A program made the position numbers and the translations under genes. Below are positions 41,084 to 49,603 of a stretch of 64,000 nt of DNA, piece after piece. The notes beneath the pieces were generated by a model. It did not search any database and had not been told where the DNA came from. It was given only the letters and a program-made list of their open reading frames with translations. The stretch spans positions 1 through 64,000 of the forward strand of contig NZ_AUIM01000010.1 in NCBI RefSeq assembly GCF_000423705.1, read 5' to 3'. Numbering within the stretch: position 1 is the first letter of the stretch; each line of letters begins with the position of its first letter. This DNA is from Stappia stellulata DSM 5886. Its GTDB lineage: Bacteria; Pseudomonadota; Alphaproteobacteria; Rhizobiales; Stappiaceae.

Positions 41084-42796
41084 ATGGACCAGAAACCGAA
41101 GACGGCACAGGATGGCATCGGCGACCCGGCCGGCGGCATCGCGGATAGTGGCGGCCCGCTTTCTGCGGGCGCCCTGTCGGCACTTGTCGAGGCCGGGCTT
41201 GACCGGGCGGTCGGCGCGCTCGACCGGCAGACCGACTTCCGGCGCGGACCACAGGGTGCTGCCGACGTCTCCGTCATCCTCAAGGGCCGGATCGACGGCC
41301 CCGCACGCACGGCCCTGACATCGGTCTTCGAGGCCTGGCCGGCGGTGGAAAGCGCGCGGCTTTCCAAGAACCGGCTGACCTTGCGCTTCACCGACGAAAC
41401 ATTGGAGCGGGTCGCGGACGGCCTTGCCGCACATCCGGACGATCCGCTGCAGCTTGGCGGCACGGCCACCGGCACGCGGATTCTCGTCGACTATCTCGAT
41501 CCCAACGCCAACAAGGCGCTGCATGTCGGGCACCTTCGCAACATCGCGCTCGGCGGCGCGCTAGCCGCCCTGTGGCGGGCACGCGGCGCCGAGGTCGCCT
41601 GCCAGAGCGTCGTCTGCGACATCGGCCGCAACATCGCCGAGGCGCTGGCCGGCGTAACGGCGGCGGGCGGACTGTCCGCGCTGGCGGGCGGCGGACCCGT
41701 GGACCGGCTGGTCGGCAGGCTCTACGGCGAGATCGCCGGGGCCGTCGTGTCCGATGAGGGCGGCGCGGACGCCGATGCGCCGATCGCGCGGGAACTGACG
41801 CTCCATGGCGATGCCGCCGACGCGGTGCTCGCCGCCTGGCGCGCAGGCGACACCGCGACGCATGCGCTGTGGCGGGAGATGATCGATCTCGTCTTGCGCG
41901 ATCAGGCGGCGACACTCGCCCGCCTCGGCCAGCGCCACGACGTTTTCCTGCGCGAATCGGATGCGGTCGGGCCGGCACTGGCGCTTGCGGACCGGTTGAT
42001 CGATGTCGGCCTCGCGCGGCGCGAGGACGACGGCGTCGTGATCCTGGAAACCGGGCGCGACGACTACCCGCGCTGCCCGCTCACCCGCAGCGACGGCTTT
42101 GCAACCGAACACCTGCGCGCGCTGGTTCTCTGGCTGGAGGCGGCACAGGGCGCATCGCCGGCCGACCGCATCCTGCACGTGATGGGCGAGGAATGGCTGA
42201 CCAGCACCGAGATCCGCCTCGATGCGCTGAGGGCACTCGGCGCCGGAGCTTTTTTCGACCGCTACCGCATGCTGCCCCATCAGCTGGTGCGGCTCGACGG
42301 CTCGACGATGAAATCGAGCACCGGCAACACGCTGTTGATCGACGACCTCATCGACACGCTCGCCCGCAACCTTCCCGGCCCGCTCGCCGCCCTGCCCGCA
42401 GAGACGCAAGGCCGGGCCGTGGCAACCATCGCGCTGACGCCGTTCCTGATCGCGGAGGCCGGCGTTGCGCTGGAGATCGACCTTGCGGCCCTCACCGACC
42501 CGGAGCGCAATCCGGGCTTCGATCTCGCAGCACTCGCGCTTGCACCGCCTTCCGGGCACGCAACGGCGTCGGGCGGCGATGCGCAGCGCTTCGCGCTGCT
42601 TCAGGGCGAAAGGCTCAGGCGGGTGTTGATCCAGGCATCCAAGCGCGACGATCCGGTGGCCCCGGCGCGGTTTCTGGCGCGCCTCGCGCAGGCCCGCCGC
42701 GACGGGGATATCGGGCCGAAGACCGACGCCGTGCTTCAGCCGCCGGTGCGCGCGGCGATGACCGCCTGCGGACTGCTGCCGGGCCTCCAGGCGTGA
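41084..42796 (+). CDS. Arginyl-tRNA synthetase paralog (class Ia aaRS-like)
   Basis: A 570-residue protein with a class Ia aminoacyl-tRNA synthetase fold of the ArgRS type. DPNANKALHVGHLRNIALGG has the HIGH motif as HVGH (147-150), and STMKSSTGNTLLIDDLID (from Met409) stands at the KMSK position. The C-terminal helical part (RFALLQGERLRRVLIQASK) looks like the ArgRS anticodon-binding domain. The N-terminal domain and the segment after HVGH are divergent; I do not find the YINDAG motif of housekeeping ArgRS. It probably activates an amino acid for a special tRNA or a small acceptor. It converges on a minus-strand tRNA-like gene, a CCA-rich peptide gene and a biosynthetic operon. A self-resistance ArgRS is an alternative. 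Confidence 0.8.
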   Translation: MDQKPKTAQDGIGDPAGGIADSGGPLSAGALSALVEAGLDRAVGALDRQTDFRRGPQGAADVSVILKGRIDGPARTALTSVFEAWPAVESARLSKNRLTLRFTDETLERVADGLAAHPDDPLQLGGTATGTRILVDYLDPNANKALHVGHLRNIALGGALAALWRARGAEVACQSVVCDIGRNIAEALAGVTAAGGLSALAGGGPVDRLVGRLYGEIAGAVVSDEGGADADAPIARELTLHGDAADAVLAAWRAGDTATHALWREMIDLVLRDQAATLARLGQRHDVFLRESDAVGPALALADRLIDVGLARREDDGVVILETGRDDYPRCPLTRSDGFATEHLRALVLWLEAAQGASPADRILHVMGEEWLTSTEIRLDALRALGAGAFFDRYRMLPHQLVRLDGSTMKSSTGNTLLIDDLIDTLARNLPGPLAALPAETQGRAVATIALTPFLIAEAGVALEIDLAALTDPERNPGFDLAALALAPPSGHATASGGDAQRFALLQGERLRRVLIQASKRDDPVAPARFLARLAQARRDGDIGPKTDAVLQPPVRAAMTACGLLPGLQA

Positions 42797-43176
42797 AGCA
42801 AGACGACGGATTCAACCGGGCACCGGCCGGCGACTTGTCCCCGCCCGGCCTTGCGGCGCATCGCCTGCGCGGTCACGCGCAATCCGATCAATATTCGCAA
42901 TTCAAAACGCAATTTTCGCAAAATCCGGCGCAAAACTTGTAAAATCTGCAAGTCCGCCAGAAAGCGATCAGGGGCACGCCGCCTCCGGCGCGCTCTTGCG
43001 GCTGCAACCGCGGAAAGACCGGACCGAGATGGCCGACCCTCCCGCGGCGCGGGTTTCTACAGGGCATCGTTTCCAGGGCATCATTTCCAGGGCATCACAT
43101 TTTGCGAAAGCGCAAGTTCGCGCGCGTTCCGGTGCTGCGGCTATCGGGCGACGGTCACCCGCCGACCTCATGTGCC
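42797..43176. other. Convergent intergenic region with short repeats
   Basis: No gene seen. It contains an AT-richer run of degenerate CGCAAAA-like words (about 42890-42940), a small CCCGC/GCGGG hairpin at 43041-43053, a 14-bp tandem repeat (43060-43101) and a TTGCG/CGCAA hairpin (43102-43115). It probably holds the 3' ends of both convergent transcripts. Confidence 0.5.
43060..43101 (+). repeat. 14-bp tandem repeat, three units
   Basis: Units begin CAGGGCATC and differ at the end (GTTTC, ATTTC, ACATT). On the minus strand the core reads GATGCCCTG, which also occurs inside the tRNA-gene insertion at 43729-43737 on the plus strand. Confidence 0.65.
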
Positions 43177-43506
43177 TTAGCGGGCTGGAACGGCATCGAA
43201 CTTGGCGAGCGCGCCAGCGGCAATTGGAGCCGAGCTGGCGATTGGCGCCGCATCACGCGCCAGTGGATGCGCCGCTGGTACAGCCAGATCGTCAAGATCC
43301 TTGGCTGGCACAGCGGGTGGCATCCCGCTCACTGGCACGCCCTTACCCGCTGGAGCAGCGGATGGAACGGCCAGCTTTGGCATAGCGGCTGGAACACCAG
43401 ACGCTGGTACAGACCGGTTCGCCATTGGCGCAGCGGTCTCGGAGAGACGCGAGCTCGTCAGCGCGAGCGCGGCCTTGATCTCCCGAAGAGCCATCACTTT
43501 GTCCAT
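43177..43506 (-). CDS. Ala/Pro-rich 109-residue peptide, prolines encoded almost only by CCA
   Basis: I recognise no family. The N-terminus (MDKVMALREIKAALALTSSR) looks like an amphipathic helix. Residues 27-107 repeat [V/A/M]-P-[A/S]-like units with 15 prolines, 14 written CCA and one CCC (residue 64). The neighbouring Ala and Val codons vary freely at the third position, so this strand is the coding one and CCA is specifically held. The ATG is preceded by AAGGAGGTGA (43522-43513), a ten-base match to the 16S anti-SD with ideal spacing, so strong translation is expected. The gene lies 117 bp after a tRNA-like gene with anticodon UGG, which would read CCA. It may be a precursor or scaffold peptide carrying a special residue at CCA positions. 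Confidence 0.72.
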   Translation of the reverse strand: MDKVMALREIKAALALTSSRLSETAAPMANRSVPASGVPAAMPKLAVPSAAPAGKGVPVSGMPPAVPAKDLDDLAVPAAHPLARDAAPIASSAPIAAGALAKFDAVPAR

Positions 43507-43512
43507 GATTTT

Positions 43513-43522
43513 TCACCTCCTT
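43513..43522 (-). promoter_or_regulatory. Perfect extended Shine-Dalgarno of the CCA-rich peptide
   Basis: AAGGAGGTGA complements the 3' end of 16S rRNA over ten bases; the GGAGG core is 9 nt from the ATG. I saw no other site this strong among the starts examined in this window. Confidence 0.85.
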
Positions 43523-43622
43523 TCCTTCCCATGCAGGAAACCGTCCGGCCTCGACCGGAGGATATCCGGGAGGCCGTGTCACATGTCGCGCCGTCTGCCG
43601 GTCACGGCATGGCGCGAGAAAA

Positions 43623-43810
43623 TGGCGCATCCGACGGGACTCGAACCCGCACCTACCAACTCCCAAAGCTGGTGCTCTTAAGCCACGTAAAGTCCGCCGT
43701 TCCGGGATCCGGGTCGGGGTGGAATGACGATGCCCTGGTGAAATCATTCCCCAGTCGCCAGGCCTTCCAGGCGTTCCGCTGCAGCATTTTACCGGTTAAG
43801 CTACGGATGC
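43623..43810 (-). tRNA. tRNA-like gene, anticodon UGG, with ~110-nt insertion in the D-loop
   Basis: On the minus strand the 5' part reads GCATCCG-TA-GCTT (43810-43798) and the 3' part gives GAGC-A, anticodon arm CCAGC-TTTGGGA-GTTGG, a 5-nt variable loop, T-arm GCGGG-TTCGAGT-CCCGT, then CGGATGC-G-CCA. All four stems pair, the acceptor pairs 7/7 and CCA is encoded. The anticodon is UGG at 43665-43663, which reads proline CCA. The ends are G1:C72 with discriminator G73, like many tRNA-Arg genes and unlike bacterial tRNA-Pro (C1:G72, A73). The D-loop is interrupted by ~110 nt (43795-43686). The 5' end overlaps the last codons of the methyltransferase gene. Either a special tRNA with an extra domain or a disrupted gene. 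Confidence 0.7.
43686..43795 (-). repeat. Insertion inside the D-loop of the tRNA-like gene
   Basis: About 110 nt between GCTTAA and TGGCTTAAGAGC. The ends carry short inverted repeats (GTAAA and TTTAC), and a GGAATGA/TCATTCC hairpin lies inside. It resembles a small palindromic element but could equally fold as a long D-arm extension. The exact borders are uncertain by several bases. Confidence 0.5.
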
Positions 43811-44589
43811 ATTTGCCCCTTTTCGTCTTCGGGGATCGGTTTTCGCGCGACGAAGACGACGTTCTCGCGCCCGTCGAGCGCGATGTAGTCGGGCGTCCCC
43901 GCACGGTGAAAGAAGCGCGCCTCCTCAACCTCCAGCCCGGCTGCACGCGCGGCACGCGACAGCACATCCGGGTCGACGAGATGCAGGAAAGCGGGCAGTT
44001 CGCTGATCGTGGGATCGTCGGACACCGCCGGCAGGTCGTGGCATTCGCCCGGCCAGGCGAGGCCCGCCGCGCGGTTCGCCTCGTAGACGGGGCCGAAGGC
44101 GCGGATGTTGGCGGCATAGGGCGAGCCGGAGATCGACAGGAACCGGCCGCCCGGCTCAAGCCACGCGGCGATTTTTGCAAAGCCCGCCTCGATCTCGGCG
44201 CCGGAGAGGAAATTGAGCAGGTTGGAGGCATGCACCAGCGACAGGCTTTCGGGCGCGAAGTCGAGCTCGGCGGGAAAGGCGCCCGGCGCCAGATGCAGAC
44301 GGTCCGAGGTCCCCGGCGGGGCATCGCGCGCCGTCGCCTCCAGATGCGCCGGGTCGATGTCATTGGCATGAACGGTGGCGCCGGAGGCAAGGGCTGCATG
44401 GGCGGCAACGCCGAAGGCGCAGCCGAGATCGAGCACGGGCCGGGCCGCCGACCCGGCGAGGTCGGCAAAGCGGCGGTTGATCTCGTTCAGCCGCGTCGTG
44501 GTGCGCCCGCGCCGGTTTGCCGTGACGAGGCTTGCCGCCCGCACGTCGTCCGGGTGCTCCTTGTCCGTCATCGCGCCCGCCTCGCTCAT
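43801..44589 (-). CDS. Class I SAM-dependent methyltransferase
   Basis: A 262-residue cytoplasmic enzyme. Motif I is VLDLGCAFGVAAHAALA, then VHANDIDPAHLE and motif IV region SLVHASNLLNFLSG, followed by WLEPGGRFLSISGSPYA. The substrate is unknown. The ATG at 44589 overlaps the preceding oxidoreductase stop by 4 bp, and the gene's own stop lies within the 5' end of the tRNA-like gene, so all are probably on one transcript. Of its 20 proline codons I count 11 CCG, 9 CCC and no CCA, which contrasts with the peptide gene downstream. Confidence 0.83.
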   Translation of the reverse strand: MSEAGAMTDKEHPDDVRAASLVTANRRGRTTTRLNEINRRFADLAGSAARPVLDLGCAFGVAAHAALASGATVHANDIDPAHLEATARDAPPGTSDRLHLAPGAFPAELDFAPESLSLVHASNLLNFLSGAEIEAGFAKIAAWLEPGGRFLSISGSPYAANIRAFGPVYEANRAAGLAWPGECHDLPAVSDDPTISELPAFLHLVDPDVLSRAARAAGLEVEEARFFHRAGTPDYIALDGRENVVFVARKPIPEDEKGQMHP

Positions 44590-45731
44590 GCGCTCACCCT
44601 TTCGGCATAGGCGCGGTAGCGCGCCTGCAACTCGCCCGCCCAGTCGTCGACGTCGTCGACATGCATCTGCGCGCAATCATAGCCGAAGGCCTCGCGCAAG
44701 ACCGCCATTTCCGCCGGCGCATAGACGATGGTGCCATCGGCGCGGATCTCGGAAATGCCTTCCACCGTCTGTCCGTCGAGATTGACGCGGATCGCCTCGT
44801 CCTGCGGAAGACCGTTGGGCAGGGCAAGACGCACCTCGCGCTTGCCGACGAGCGCCGGATAGCCGCCGGGAAGCGCGTTGGGACCCGGCACATGCATGGG
44901 CTTTTGGGTATCGGGCGCGCTCAAGGCGGCGGTCACCGCCGCGACGCCGGAGGCGGCAACGATCTGGCCGGTGACGCCGCGCACGCGCTTGAACTCGCCG
45001 ATCACGCTGGAAAACAGCGCCGTGTGATCGAGCGTGTCGGCGACCTCCGCGCCGTCGAGCACGATGCTCAGCCGATAGGGCGCGTCGCCCGGCGTGCCAT
45101 AGGAGGAAATCGCGTTGCAGGCGACATGATGCGCGACGAAATGAACCGTCAGCGCGCCGCGTTCCACGCCGAGCTGGCCCGCGGCCGCACGGGTCAGCGT
45201 CGGCACGATATTGGCGATGTTGCCGCCGCCGACATGCGGAGCGAGGCCGACGGTCGCAAGCGCGGAATTCACCGCGTCGGGGAAGGCGGCATTGACCACC
45301 AGCGCGCTGCTGCCGGCGGATCGCACGGCGCGCATCACCGCCCGCGCGGTCGCCAGATGATTGGGCAGCCACGGGCCGATGCGCGCGCGCTCCAGATGCT
45401 TGTACGCCTCCGACGGCAAGAGGCCGATCTCCCAGAAGGTCTGCAGGCTGGTGGCGTTGACGATGATGTCGGGGCGGACCCGGTCGATCAGCGCCGCGCA
45501 GGCGTCGGTCTCGAATACATCGCAGGCCACCGCCTCGATGCGCGGATCGAACCCCAGGCAAAGCGCGGAGGTGATCGACAGGTTCACGCGCTGCGACAGC
45601 GCATCGCCGCGCCGCGACGCGACAACAAGATCGAAGCGGTCGTCCATCCGCGACAGCAGGTCGCAGACATGGCCGCCAATGACACCGGCGCCGAAAATCA
45701 GGACGCGGTCGCGTTTCCAGGCATCTACCAT
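44586..45731 (-). CDS. Saccharopine-dehydrogenase-like NAD(P) oxidoreductase
   Basis: A 381-residue enzyme. The Rossmann motif is VLIFGAGVIGGHVCDLL, followed by VVASRRGDALSQRV and PDIIVNATSLQTFWEIG. The overall pattern is that of the saccharopine dehydrogenase/carboxynorspermidine synthase superfamily, which forms or splits secondary amines, but I cannot assign a substrate. The ATG at 45731 overlaps the HAD gene stop by 7 bp. An upstream frame extension of 24 residues is not supported. It is part of the aminotransferase-HAD-oxidoreductase-methyltransferase operon. Confidence 0.72.
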   Translation of the reverse strand: MVDAWKRDRVLIFGAGVIGGHVCDLLSRMDDRFDLVVASRRGDALSQRVNLSITSALCLGFDPRIEAVACDVFETDACAALIDRVRPDIIVNATSLQTFWEIGLLPSEAYKHLERARIGPWLPNHLATARAVMRAVRSAGSSALVVNAAFPDAVNSALATVGLAPHVGGGNIANIVPTLTRAAAGQLGVERGALTVHFVAHHVACNAISSYGTPGDAPYRLSIVLDGAEVADTLDHTALFSSVIGEFKRVRGVTGQIVAASGVAAVTAALSAPDTQKPMHVPGPNALPGGYPALVGKREVRLALPNGLPQDEAIRVNLDGQTVEGISEIRADGTIVYAPAEMAVLREAFGYDCAQMHVDDVDDWAGELQARYRAYAERVSA

Positions 45732-46768
45732 TGCATCGCCTCCATCACGTGGTGCGGACGAACCCGTGTGCGCTCGACAAGCCCCGCAAGCGCGTCCAGA
45801 CAAAGCCGGCCTTGCGGGCCGGCATGAAGTTCATGGGCATGGGACCCCGAGCCGGTCACGAGAACGGTCGGAATGCCGGCTGCCCGGGCCCCGGCGATGT
45901 CGGTCGCCAGCGTGTCGCCGATCATCAGGGCACGGACCGGATCGGCGCTCCCGACAGCCGCCAACGCGGCGGAATAGATTTCCAGGGCGGGTTTTCCATA
46001 GATGCGAACGGTCCCGCCGAACGACTGGTAGACGGGCGCGAGCGCGCCAATGCCGAGATGAAGCGACCCGGCAATGCGCACGCAGGTATCGGCATTGGTC
46101 AGAACCAGCGGCAGGCCGGCGCGGGCGGCGGCTCGCAGGAGACGACGGGTCTCAACGTCGGGCACGGGCAAAGGCGCGTCGGCGCGCGGGTCGCCGTGCC
46201 CCAGAACGCCGAAGCCGAGAAGAAGATCCGCCGCGTCGGGCGAGTCGACGCAGGCCAGACCGGCGTCGCGCGCCCAGTCGCCACCGGGCTGCGTTCCAAC
46301 GACGACACAGCGCAGGGCATCGCCACCGCAACGGCGGCGCCGTGCCACTTCGTCCGACAATTGCTCGAACGCCAGACCGCCGCCGGTGATCACCGCGGCG
46401 TAGAGATCGGGGGCGAGCCCCTGCTCCTGGAGCAGGCGGGCCAGATCCTCGCCACGGCGCGACGTGTTGGAGACAAGCACCACCGGCACACGGCGCTCGC
46501 GCAGGCGCTCGAGTGCGCGGATGGCGGACGGATAGGCACGCACCCCGTCCGTGACAACGCCCCAGACATCGACAAGGACCGCGCAAGGCGCCTCCGCGCG
46601 CGCGGCATCGTCGAACAGCCCGCCAAGACCGGCAAGCCGGCGCGGTTCCGTGACGTTGACCGGCGGCACCTGGAGCGAAAGACCGCCGTCGGCCGGTCCG
46701 CTTTCGGACCATGGGCCGTAGGCGCGTGTTGCAGCTTCGGCACCTCCCGCGCCGTCACGCGGGCTCAC
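45725..46768 (-). CDS. HAD-superfamily class IIA hydrolase
   Basis: A 347-residue phosphatase-like protein. The nucleophile motif is VLVDVWGVVTDG, where the usual second Asp of DxD is replaced by Trp-Gly, as in the HAD-IIA sub-branch. Motif II is VLVSNTSRRG, and motif IV is ALMIGDTLATDIAGARAAGI. The start is a GTG that overlaps the aminotransferase stop by 4 bp (GTGA). An N-terminal extension of about 55 residues precedes the domain. Family members dephosphorylate small phosphate esters; the substrate here is unknown. Confidence 0.8.
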   Translation of the reverse strand: MSPRDGAGGAEAATRAYGPWSESGPADGGLSLQVPPVNVTEPRRLAGLGGLFDDAARAEAPCAVLVDVWGVVTDGVRAYPSAIRALERLRERRVPVVLVSNTSRRGEDLARLLQEQGLAPDLYAAVITGGGLAFEQLSDEVARRRRCGGDALRCVVVGTQPGGDWARDAGLACVDSPDAADLLLGFGVLGHGDPRADAPLPVPDVETRRLLRAAARAGLPLVLTNADTCVRIAGSLHLGIGALAPVYQSFGGTVRIYGKPALEIYSAALAAVGSADPVRALMIGDTLATDIAGARAAGIPTVLVTGSGSHAHELHAGPQGRLCLDALAGLVERTRVRPHHVMEAMQW

Positions 46769-48246
46769 AGCGCCGCTCCCTGTCCGGCGGCGATCGCGGC
46801 CGCCGATTGCCGTTGCGGCATAGGCCGGGTCACATCCGGCAGCTGATTCAGCAGCTTCAAGAGGGCCGGCTCGACGCGCTCCGCGAATGCGGAGACAATC
46901 AGCTCGCGCGCCTGGGCGAAACCATCGTCGAAGCTGTGCTCCTGCTCCTCGCCCCAGGCCTCGTCGGCACGGTCCTCCCAGAGCCTCGACGCGCCATAAG
47001 TGAGATCCGTACCGATGGACGCCACATTGGCGCGCACGCGCGGTCCCTCGAAGCCATGCGACACGGCAGGCGCGAAAGCGACCTTCGCCTCGTTCAGAAA
47101 AAGCCGCGTCAGATCCGCGCCGTCGCCCAGCGTGCCACCCTCCGGCAACTCGTGACCGACCAGACAGGGAAACTCCAGAAGCACCGAATGCCCTGCCTCG
47201 ACCGGATGCCCGACCGTCACCATCGGGGCGTTCAGGCGGGTCGCCGCGCGCAGGCGGGCATCGAGCCCGTGCACCAGCTCGCAGACGAGCCCGATCCGCC
47301 GTCGGCACTCCTCGACATTGCGCCGGGAGAAAAGCGCCGGCGCGCGCAGGGCGCCAAGGGCGGCCGCCTTGGCGACATGGGGAATGCTGGCTGCGCTGCT
47401 GGTGATGTAATCCTGCAGGATCGCGACCAGCCAGTCCGGACCGCAGCCCCAGCCGATCCTGAGATTGGCCAGGCAGTGCAGCTTGCTGGCGCCGGCCACC
47501 GTGAGGCATCGCTCGCCCGCAGGCGATGCAGCCAGACGCCCGCGCGCCCCGTCGGCGTCATATTCGGACCCCGCGAACAGCGCATCCTCAATGGCGAGCA
47601 TGTCCGCCTCGACCAGAACCGCGCCCAGGTCATCCAGTTCGTCCTGGCTGTAGACGGCGCCGGTCATGGTCGGATTGAAGAGAACCAGCAGGGGTGGCAC
47701 CTTCGGACGCGTGCGGGCGATCCAGTCCCGCAGCTCCTTCGCTCCGAGCTTGTAGGCCCGTGCCCGGGAGGTGGGCAGGACATGCAAGGGCCGGTCGAGA
47801 TAGCCGCACCAGCCGGCAAGGGGATGGTAGAAGCCCGGAGACGTGACGACGTCCGACCCGCCGCGCGTCATCAGACCGATGGCCGCCACCATCAGACGCG
47901 TGGAGCCGGCGTCGAGAACCACGTTTCGCGCGAAGGCCCGTGGCACGCCAACACGGCAGAAACTATGCGCGATTTCGGTTTCCAGATCGGGGAAACGCCG
48001 CAGGAACATGTAGTTCTCGATCGGCGCGCCATCGGCATCGCGCAGCGCCTCGATGGCGTTTCGGATGGCACCGGGGAACGGTCGACGGACCCCTTCGCCA
48101 TGGGCGAAGGACACCACATCGGGATCGAACATGCCCGGTCCGACGCGTGTCCCGTCCTCCCCCAACCCCATCAGGGCCAGCCGGGCACGATGCAGGCTTT
48201 CGACTGCCGGGCCCTGCGAGGGGCCGGCCACACGTTCACACATCAT
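46765..48246 (-). CDS. Fold-type I PLP-dependent aminotransferase
   Basis: A 493-residue class I/II aminotransferase-like enzyme. Recognisable parts: FDPDVVSFAHGEGVRRPFPGAI, NYMFLRRFPDLETEIA, NPTMTGAVYSQDELDDLG, IEDALFAG and the Schiff-base Lys in VAGASKLHCLANLRIGW. It is longer than typical members, with a C-terminal helical extension of about 40 residues. It heads the operon, downstream of an unusually AT-rich leader. Enzymes of this type include arginine oxidases and cyclases in natural-product pathways, but this assignment is only a possibility. ATG at 48246 or 48243. Confidence 0.8.
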   Translation of the reverse strand: MMCERVAGPSQGPAVESLHRARLALMGLGEDGTRVGPGMFDPDVVSFAHGEGVRRPFPGAIRNAIEALRDADGAPIENYMFLRRFPDLETEIAHSFCRVGVPRAFARNVVLDAGSTRLMVAAIGLMTRGGSDVVTSPGFYHPLAGWCGYLDRPLHVLPTSRARAYKLGAKELRDWIARTRPKVPPLLVLFNPTMTGAVYSQDELDDLGAVLVEADMLAIEDALFAGSEYDADGARGRLAASPAGERCLTVAGASKLHCLANLRIGWGCGPDWLVAILQDYITSSAASIPHVAKAAALGALRAPALFSRRNVEECRRRIGLVCELVHGLDARLRAATRLNAPMVTVGHPVEAGHSVLLEFPCLVGHELPEGGTLGDGADLTRLFLNEAKVAFAPAVSHGFEGPRVRANVASIGTDLTYGASRLWEDRADEAWGEEQEHSFDDGFAQARELIVSAFAERVEPALLKLLNQLPDVTRPMPQRQSAAAIAAGQGAAL

Positions 48247-48547
48247 GCCACCACCCAAAATCTCTATTTAATAGCATATATTACATATACTCGTTATACG
48301 ATCACAATCAGTCATATTGCGCAACATAATTATAGAAATACCTGAAATCTCAAATCGTCATTCCGAAAAGTACATAATTTAATATATTTTATTTATATTA
48401 CTCTACGTCGCTTTTGAGATAAGTCGCAATCGACAAGCCCTCTGATCGGGATTGCGTCCTGGCGCCTTGTCCGGCCAAAGTTCCTTCTTGCAACGCCAGC
48501 CCTGTGTGGCGAGTGTAACGCTCCCGCAGCACCTTTCGGAGATCCGC
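48247..48547. promoter_or_regulatory. AT-rich divergent promoter region
   Basis: No gene seen. From about 48258 to 48425 the sequence is strongly AT-rich within an otherwise GC-rich window. A TATAAT word lies on the minus strand at 48334-48329, facing the aminotransferase operon. The region must hold promoters for that operon and for the dipeptidase. AT-rich DNA of this kind is a common target of silencers such as MucR/Ros-type proteins. Confidence 0.55.
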
Positions 48548-49603
48548 ATGCCCCCCGACCTCGTGCCCGTCTTCGACGGACACAATGACACCTTGCTGAA
48601 ACTGGAGCTGGGCGCAGGCACTGCGCGCGAACGCTCATTCCTGACCCGTTCGGACCGCGATCACATCGACTTGCCGCGCGCGCGTGAAGGCGGCTTCGCC
48701 GGTGGCCTGTTCGCGATGTATGTGCCCTCGCGCACGGGGCTGGACCTCACGGTGCGCTACAACCCGAGCGATCCGGCGAATTTCGCGCCGGTCGCGCAGG
48801 ACGTCGCGCTGGGGTTCACCTTGCGCATGGCCGCGCGTGCAAGACGGCTGGAGCGGGAAGCGGCCGGCGCCGTCGCGATCTGCACCGATGTGCCGGGCAT
48901 CCGCCAGGCCATGGCCGACGATGCGCTCGCCATGGTGCTGCACATCGAGGGAGCGGAGGCGATCGACGCGGATTTCTGCGCGCTCGAGGTGCTGCATGCC
49001 GCAGGATTGCGCTCGCTCGGCCCCGTCTGGAGCCGGCCGAACATCTTCGGCGACGGTGCACCGATGACCTGCCCCTCCTCACCGGACACGGGACCGGGCC
49101 TGAGCGACACCGGCAAGGCGCTGGTCAGGGCCTGCAACCAACTCAAGATCATGGTCGATCTGTCGCATCTGACGGAAAAAGGGTTCTGGGACGTCGCCGC
49201 AACCAGCGACCGCCCGCTGGTGGCTTCGCACTCCAACGCCCATGCGGTCTGTCCTTCCGCACGCAATCTCACCGATCGCCAGCTCGACGCCATCGCGGAA
49301 AGCAAGGGGTTGGCCGGCCTCAACTTCCACGTCGCCTTCCTCAGGCCCGACGGCGCCCACAAAGGCGACACGCCGCTGGAGCTGATGGTGCGCCACACCG
49401 ATCACATGCTGTCCAGGCTCGGCGAGGACGGGGTCGCGCTCGGCTCGGATTTCGACGGGTGTTTCGTGCCGCGCGCCATCGGCGACGTCAGCGGGCTGCC
49501 CAAGCTGATCGACGCGTTCCGGGCCGCAGGCTACGGCGAGGCGCTGATCGAGAAGATCGCCTGGCGCAACTGGCTCTCGGTGCTGGAGCGGACCTGGACG
49601 TAA
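48548..49603 (+). CDS. Membrane dipeptidase (renal dipeptidase, peptidase M19)
   Basis: A 351-residue zinc peptidase without a signal peptide. The binuclear zinc ligands are present: HxD in FDGHNDTLL, the bridging Glu in MVLHIEGAEAID, His in VDLSHLTEKG and SHSNAHAV, and Asp in GSDFDGCF. The family cleaves dipeptides, including those with D-amino acids or unusual residues. The ATG at 48548 follows GGAG; the upstream frame extension is not supported. It is divergent from the aminotransferase operon across the AT-rich region and could process or detoxify its product. Confidence 0.88.
   Translation: MPPDLVPVFDGHNDTLLKLELGAGTARERSFLTRSDRDHIDLPRAREGGFAGGLFAMYVPSRTGLDLTVRYNPSDPANFAPVAQDVALGFTLRMAARARRLEREAAGAVAICTDVPGIRQAMADDALAMVLHIEGAEAIDADFCALEVLHAAGLRSLGPVWSRPNIFGDGAPMTCPSSPDTGPGLSDTGKALVRACNQLKIMVDLSHLTEKGFWDVAATSDRPLVASHSNAHAVCPSARNLTDRQLDAIAESKGLAGLNFHVAFLRPDGAHKGDTPLELMVRHTDHMLSRLGEDGVALGSDFDGCFVPRAIGDVSGLPKLIDAFRAAGYGEALIEKIAWRNWLSVLERTWT

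Follow-up and report, generated by a model that had tools for sequence, protein, structure and literature searches.

In the pyrrolysine system, the synthetase PylRS and its tRNAPyl are encoded together with the biosynthetic genes pylBCD, and the stop codon UAG is read in several enzymes. A locus of comparable layout, in which a putatively dedicated synthetase and an unusual transfer RNA (tRNA) lie beside putative amino-acid-making genes, is present in the alphaproteobacterium Stappia stellulata DSM 5886 (contig NZ_AUIM01000010.1, positions 1 to 64,000; this whole stretch of 64,000 nucleotides (nt) is referred to below as the window). Addition of the amino acid during translation is predicted here as well; however, the codon concerned is the sense codon CCA in one peptide, the synthetases are derived from arginyl- or leucyl-tRNA synthetase (ArgRS or LeuRS), and several amino-acid chemistries appear to be involved. 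Our analyses make it likely that the locus encodes a dedicated translation system, which inserts a non-proline amino acid made by the gene cluster (designated X) at the CCA codons of this peptide.

Selenocysteine is a non-standard amino acid carried by an unusual tRNA and inserted at UGA with the aid of an mRNA hairpin and a special elongation factor (see PMC7609411, in part). The tRNA of the present locus is likewise unusual and predicted to carry a non-standard amino acid, whereas UGA, hairpin and special elongation factor were not recognised in the proteins scanned here, among which no search was aimed at SelB. In the ProRSx/tRNA-ProX pairs, according to the available text, a synthetase paralog lies beside an odd tRNA and sense codons receive a second reading, the inserted amino acid being ordinary proline (PMC10365949, PMC9437257). 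The paralog adjoining an odd tRNA and the second reading of sense codons (here predicted) are common to both; however, that text describes neither biosynthesis genes nor a codon-locked peptide for ProRSx, and the paralogs reported here are not derived from prolyl-tRNA synthetase (ProRS). In the CysRS*/SelC* system a paralogous synthetase without an anticodon domain is coupled to its own tRNA, as is predicted here, but the outcome given in the available part of the source is cysteine at UGA, by which the amino-acid repertoire is not extended (PMC9437257). In pearlin biosynthesis, a PEARL enzyme extends the carrier peptide by an amino acid at its C terminus (PMC9303977, in part); a small peptide, tailoring genes, aminoacyl-tRNA and amino-acid-like products are common to both systems, whereas the addition there is C-terminal and neither a dedicated tRNA nor an internal codon is described in that part of the source. 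No comparable system was found in the titles and abstract openings among the literature matches listed, and the nearest published systems, as far as these partial sources extend, are ProRSx/tRNA-ProX (PMC10365949, PMC9437257) and the pearlins (PMC9303977).

A first-pass annotation of the window had proposed a dedicated decoding system composed of a divergent ArgRS paralog, an orphan tRNA(UGG), a CCA-locked peptide and a biosynthetic operon, and this reading is supported by the present comparisons of sequence. The ArgRS paralog (570 amino acids (aa); 41084-42796, plus strand) has a class I catalytic domain with the motifs LHVGH and MKSS, the altered arginine-pocket sequence DGFATEHLRA and a shortened C-terminal domain. 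Convergent to it, on the minus strand, is an operon encoding an aminotransferase, a HAD phosphatase, an oxidoreductase, a methyltransferase, the tRNA and the peptide, the whole arrangement occupying 41084-48246. The four enzyme genes read into the tRNA and peptide as had been reported, the stop codon of the methyltransferase gene (43801-44592, minus strand) lying within the tRNA gene (188 nt; 43623-43810, minus strand). In the peptide (109 aa; 43177-43506, minus strand), 14 of the 15 prolines are encoded by CCA, the figure for nine neighbouring genes being 6 of 216, and its gene is preceded by the long Shine-Dalgarno sequence GAAAGGAGGTGA (Shine-Dalgarno region GAAAGGAGGTGAAAAATC, 43507-43524, minus strand), in agreement with its earlier description as strongly translated. 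In the mechanism that we propose, X would be a non-standard amino acid made by the four operon enzymes and loaded onto the orphan tRNA by the divergent ArgRS paralog, and this tRNA would read CCA. The strongly initiated 109-aa peptide would thereby receive X at its 14 CCA codons, whereas CCC, CCT and CCG would stay proline. The peptide probably serves as a precursor that would be cleaved to release X-containing products.

Strong matches to the ArgRS paralog are present in 5 of 14 genus members, including that of the window (61 genomes searched). Its identity in the four relatives is 88, 86, 86 and 58%, and the paralog, the peptide, the four operon enzymes, a dipeptidase and mtnA have the same gene order there. 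A blastn search of 87 family genomes with the tRNA recovered the same five genus members and Breoghania (60 nt of the 3' half, 82% identity); a weak 28-nt match in another genome (G103, locus L032), to part of the T arm, is probably an ordinary tRNA. A pattern composed of AGGGCATCG, TTGGG and the T loop, run over genome contigs, gave 85 stretches, in 14 of which the T and anticodon arms are paired. In nine of these 14, the distance between the closing of the acceptor stem of 7 base pairs (bp) and the T loop is 167-176 nt; in the other five it is an ordinary 57-59 nt, and one of these (L078) shows a second acceptor candidate at 154 nt. The nine long-spaced stretches are three known genus loci, Breoghania and five new loci, viz. 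Oceaniradius stylonematis, Alkalicaulis satelles, Hoeflea poritis, a Xanthobacteraceae metagenome-assembled genome (MAG) and an alphaproteobacterial MAG (MAG464).

All 11 loci that were read contain the insert-bearing tRNA described below, a synthetase paralog and a CCA peptide. The five first located by the paralog all hold the tRNA, and the six located by the tRNA all hold the paralog and the CCA peptide, so that both the retention of CCA in homologous peptides (11 of 11 loci) and the presence of the tRNA in homologous loci, on which the earlier annotation had staked its reading, are observed. The co-occurrence of five parts, which it had named as a check, is observed: the parts recur elsewhere, with a LeuRS paralog replacing the ArgRS paralog in three loci. 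The dipeptidase is not core. Judged from these gene contents, the idea of dedicated decoding generalises across synthetase kinds, because the synthetase and the biosynthetic genes change together while the tRNA type and the CCA-locked peptide stay.

Other searches delimit this distribution. A covariance model (R1) run over 397 genomes of the order found ordinary tRNAs in 395 and, among the matches listed, a 188-nt match from the window only, and a profile of the ArgRS paralog reached E <= 1e-40 in the window genome alone among 385 genomes of the class. An anticodon-free pattern matched 9 of 137 genomes of the Alkalicaulis family, where only Alkalicaulis's own match reads as a tRNA, and 150 of 394 genomes of the Hoeflea family, mostly by chance, with a tRNA among the matches listed in Hoeflea only (Oceaniradius being also marked); since the matches in both scans were mostly not tRNAs and those of the second were listed in part, they probe the constancy of the anticodon beyond the given loci weakly. 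Six pattern matches in viral contigs include no insert-bearing tRNA on reading, and the plasmids of a set from which records near the window genome may be missing gave no match to the catalytic part of the paralog (337 aa) or to the tRNA. The spread of the loci over distant genera suggests horizontal transfer.

The loci fall into four cluster types. Type A (the five genus loci, Oceaniradius and Alkalicaulis) combines the ArgRS paralog with aminotransferase, HAD phosphatase, oxidoreductase and methyltransferase, the first two enzymes being a single fused protein in Oceaniradius and Alkalicaulis. In type B (the Xanthobacteraceae MAG), the ArgRS paralog shows 32% identity over 466 aa, and its neighbours are a glutamine-synthetase-like enzyme, a Cys/Met-metabolism pyridoxal-phosphate (PLP) enzyme and a desaturase-family protein. 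Type C (Breoghania and MAG464) has a LeuRS paralog together with a PhyH dioxygenase and an HMGL/homocitrate-synthase-like enzyme (Pfam matches in both), an AMP-binding enzyme (Pfam in Breoghania, by eye in MAG464), and a luciferase-like monooxygenase, an RraA-like enzyme and a thioesterase (Pfam in MAG464, by eye in Breoghania). Type D (Hoeflea) has a LeuRS-like protein that shows no editing-domain match and whose gene lies some 5 kb away from that of the tRNA; the enzymes accompanying it are of the radical SAM, arginase-family, class V aminotransferase and ATP-grasp kinds. The paralog is thus ArgRS-like in eight loci and LeuRS-like in three, and the switch between them goes with different biosynthetic genes, the tRNA type and CCA-locked peptide being unchanged. 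The tRNA and peptide would therefore form a module common to at least four cluster kinds, each with its own synthetase paralog and biosynthetic genes, and X is predicted to differ by cluster because these differ. That each cluster would employ a non-standard amino acid is also suggested by the fit between synthetase ancestry and neighbouring chemistry, as in type C, where LeuRS paralogs stand beside LeuA-like genes. As a separate observation, a LanM-like lanthionine synthetase (DUF4135 and LANC_like) and a small protein are located beside the type A cluster of Oceaniradius (L171:9989-13566 for the two), and the small protein resembles by eye a nitrile-hydratase-type leader of ribosomally made peptides, with no Pfam match.

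Over the 11 peptides, 137 of the 154 prolines are encoded by CCA, viz. 14/15, 14/16, 14/16, 14/15 and 15/17 in the genus peptides, 15/19 in Oceaniradius, 11/12 in Alkalicaulis, 16/18 in the Xanthobacteraceae MAG, 10/10 in Hoeflea and 7/8 in both MAG464 and Breoghania. In background genes of the same clusters, identified by family, similarity or eye, the CCA share is 2.3-19% (Breoghania 3/128, MAG464 10/190, Hoeflea 24/124, Xanthobacteraceae 9/109, Oceaniradius 7/127, Alkalicaulis 11/92), which gives binomial p values per peptide of 7.4e-8 to 4.1e-16 for the six non-genus loci; those for Stappia are 1.9e-20 to 5.8e-22. An earlier background of mechanically chosen open reading frames (ORFs), some of them probably false frames, had 2.7-21% CCA and gave p values of 2.5e-7 to 6.1e-14 for the six loci. 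In the Stappia alignment, synonymous variation is found in 0 of 14 CCA columns versus 15 of 38 conserved Ala, Val, Gly or Thr columns (Fisher p 0.0001-0.015 in seven pairwise comparisons, five of which share the window peptide and are hence non-independent). In each of the 11 peptides the CCA triplets lie predominantly in frame 0 (14, 3 and 0 by frame in the window peptide); being enriched in that frame only, CCA acts as a codon rather than as an RNA motif. The 17 prolines encoded by CCC, CCT or CCG include 13 that stand directly behind a CCA proline, and in type A this applies to 13 of 13, with CCC, CCT and CCG interchanging. The 7 to 16 CCA codons per peptide are followed by Ala, Leu, Val or Ile in 60 of 80 cases (seven peptides), and the ribosome site AAAGGAGGTGA lies upstream of 10 of the 11 peptides, that of Hoeflea being weaker. 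The CCA sites are thus under selection at the codon level, as is characteristic of natural code expansion of the pyrrolysine or selenocysteine kind.

These observations bear on whether the tRNA, if charged, serves the ribosome. Some synthetase duplicates work outside translation (PMC9437257, available text) and aminoacyl-tRNA chemistry on carrier peptides is already known (PMC9303977, available text), and the paralog might accordingly charge the tRNA for a non-ribosomal step, such as metabolite transfer or a PEARL-like extension of a carrier peptide, with CCA being favoured for some other cause. However, this leaves both the in-frame fixation of CCA in 11 of 11 peptides and the codon-cognate anticodon unexplained. 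Further, no PEARL (lantibiotic-dehydratase-like) enzyme or member of other aminoacyl-tRNA transferase families was found among the window proteins scanned, a negative result limited by the partial scanning of the other loci and by the LanM-like enzyme adjoining the Oceaniradius cluster. We regard this explanation as unlikely. Slightly less likely still is that the peptide is a regulatory leader (attenuator) whose CCA codons sense the charged state of the special tRNA, the peptide itself not being the product. In the Xanthobacteraceae MAG, Breoghania and MAG464, the peptide gene precedes the synthetase gene and shares its strand, which would suit such a role; in type A, however, an attenuator would have no downstream cluster gene to regulate, because the peptide comes last in the operon and the synthetase gene runs towards it from the opposite strand. 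The amino-acid sequence of the peptide is moreover conserved along its length, with its 7-16 CCA codons, and even a CCA sensor would require that the special tRNA read CCA.

The orphan tRNA, as read by hand, has a 7-bp acceptor stem, a 4-bp D stem, a 5-bp anticodon stem bearing UGG (TGG at 43663-43665, minus strand) and a 5-bp T stem, with G1:C72, G73 and an encoded CCA end. The anticodon and the arginine-like ends first assigned to it therefore stand, but it is not an ordinary 76-nt gene: its 188 nt include an insert of 112 nt in the D loop, after position 20 (43679-43790, minus strand, borders within a base or two), and with the insert removed a regular 76-nt tRNA results. ARAGORN called zero tRNAs in the window and missed this one, and the Rfam tRNA model (RF00005) covers only its 3' part, at 35.4 bits; no other Rfam model, including that for tmRNA, reached the cut-off in 42700-48700. 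In an alignment of the window with eight of the nine scan stretches (the third genus locus, L114, was omitted), all 189 cells of 21 pairs are standard, with changes on both sides at four pairs, the acceptor, T and anticodon stems having been wholly or partly required by the filter and the D stem not; RNAalifold gives the same four arms. Without its insert, the orphan tRNA is 60% identical to the host tRNA-Pro(UGG), 69% to tRNA-Arg(CCG) and 75% to tRNA-Lys(UUU). Bacterial ProRS recognises C1:G72 and A73 as identity elements. Three tRNA-Pro of the host's own, for UGG, GGG and CGG, all carry C1:G72 and A73, whereas the orphan combines a CCN-reading anticodon with G1:C72 and G73, because of which host ProRS should leave it uncharged.

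The window paralog scores 83.7 bits with TIGR00456, against a cut-off of 261.65, and thus fails as ArgRS proper, which bears out the divergence first ascribed to it; the paralogs of eight genomes score 72.1-124.5 bits, all below the cut-off. The PF00750 score of the window paralog (37.3 bits) and the LHVGH/LHLGH and MKSS motifs retained in the ArgRS paralogs place them with class I ArgRS, and an AlphaFold2 model of the window paralog (pLDDT 86) has yeast ArgRS as its best PDB match (1f7u, TM 0.73). The arginine-pocket motif DGxxTYxxxD is present in host ArgRS and in the PDB alignments that cover the site (3fnr, 2zue, 4q2t, 4zaj). Its Tyr and Asp, which we take to be the guanidinium contacts, are replaced in 8 of 8 ArgRS paralogs, Tyr by Glu and Asp by Ala (seven) or Gln (one). 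The C-terminal domain of the window paralog is also shorter than that of host ArgRS. The record of the Oceaniradius paralog (L116:711-2621) has an ambiguous base near the C terminus (X in translation), and only the part before it was aligned. A separate ArgRS above the cut-off is present in seven of the eight genomes with an ArgRS paralog, and a separate LeuRS in Breoghania and Hoeflea. In comparison with the LeuRS of the Breoghania host, the only reference used, the C-terminal tail and a segment preceding KMSKS are missing from the three LeuRS paralogs, and the residues ahead of HMGH are different. A further ArgRS-like gene (G059, L025; 568-aa open frame) keeps the pocket Tyr and Asp and was set aside as an ordinary second ArgRS.

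The features of the tRNA and synthetases also speak to the possibility that the tRNA carries plain proline (or Arg or Leu) and that the CCA bias tunes translation speed or avoids stalls at Pro-Pro. UGG is a proline anticodon, and an influence of codon choice at Pro-Pro has been reported (PMC8129111, in the part available). The bias persists, however, at isolated prolines, the host already owns a tRNA-Pro(UGG), and the ends of the orphan differ from those of all three host tRNA-Pro; for canonical Arg or Leu a special codon, synthetase and pathway would be needless. We consider this very unlikely; X is predicted to be non-standard because a codon, tRNA, synthetase and pathway of its own would be superfluous for a canonical amino acid.

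The core of the insert, CAGGGCATCG (43728-43737, minus strand), is common to the Breoghania tRNA, which has the anticodon UGG and a 111-nt D-loop insert and was located by 3'-half similarity alone, without use of the core. The insert occupies the same place in all nine scan stretches, in part by selection, as the pattern required its core, and among the five Stappia-type loci the insert-bearing tRNA shows 97-100% identity, whereas the paralog falls to 58% and the HAD phosphatase to 52%. Base pairing between the insert and the peptide leader found no support in seven loci (z -1.3 to +1.2, 30 shuffles each); the insert may serve in recognition by the paralog, in exclusion of ProRS or in removal as an intron. 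A reading of the insert as an intron or parasite with no part in the system, for which its excision to a regular 76-nt tRNA might be taken to speak, is hardly credible in view of this co-location and of its conservation beside a far more variable paralog, and would leave the proposed insertion of X at CCA unchanged.

As regards the remaining genes of the window locus, the fold-type I PLP aminotransferase-like enzyme (46765-48246, minus strand) matches best an aspartate-transaminase model, with GntC and VioD weaker; its structure model is poor (pLDDT 70) and its PDB matches are generic. The HAD-IIA phosphatase (45725-46732, minus strand) has an uncertain start. The NAD(P)-binding oxidoreductase (44586-45734, minus strand) is weakly saccharopine-dehydrogenase-like at its N-terminus and has no NCBIfam match at E 0.01, and the methyltransferase is SAM-dependent. 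Homologues of the oxidoreductase with 33-42% identity occur in G326, G342, G268 and G040 (L034-L037, L052), around which the stretches fetched contain neither a synthetase paralog nor an insert-bearing tRNA; G268 also has a HAD match (32%), G342 a weak aminotransferase match (26%), and G040 two oxidoreductase homologues about 1.2 kb apart. The divergent M19 membrane dipeptidase (48548-49603, plus strand; the start at 48548 is a manual reading) had been noted as diverging from the operon. It is present in the five Stappia-type loci, but the ORFs selected at the six non-genus loci contain no match to it, and it is therefore probably accessory rather than core.

Several observations weigh against a dedicated system that inserts X at CCA. 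Four non-CCA prolines do not stand behind CCA (two in the Xanthobacteraceae MAG and one each in MAG464 and Breoghania, the latter two being CCC at the same aligned position), and at one proline site the codon differs between the aligned Stappia (window) and Oceaniradius peptides. In Hoeflea, the 5 kb between the LeuRS-like gene and the tRNA is accompanied by a CCA share that is not rare (19%). The LeuRS paralogs of MAG464 and Breoghania score above the LeuRS cut-off, so that leucine itself is possible as the type C amino acid. No second ArgRS was found in the Xanthobacteraceae MAG and no second LeuRS at E <= 1e-80 in MAG464, and the supposed paralogs are perhaps sole copies there, or these MAGs incomplete. 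Since the scan pattern required UGG, the T loop and the insert core, their invariance among the five new loci carries no independent weight, and the mature tRNA might not keep the insert. Lastly, host CCA codons, rare in most clusters yet present, would need protection from X.

We consider it reasonably probable, on the comparative evidence, that the loci represent a modular and sporadic code-expansion platform of alphaproteobacteria, in which exchangeable synthetases and cassettes would assign to a sense codon of a single peptide no fewer than three or four different non-standard amino acids. If this is correct, these would be, as far as is known, the first genetically encoded amino acids beyond selenocysteine and pyrrolysine and the first on a sense codon; the natural genetic code would exceed 22 amino acids, with a sense codon recoded inside a single peptide. 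The synthetase/tRNA pairs, pre-tuned to unusual amino acids, would then be ready tools for protein engineering. The combination of a D-loop-insert tRNA, a synthetase paralog and a codon-locked peptide provides a rule for genome mining, and the existence of further natural code expansions becomes directly testable in Stappia or Oceaniradius.

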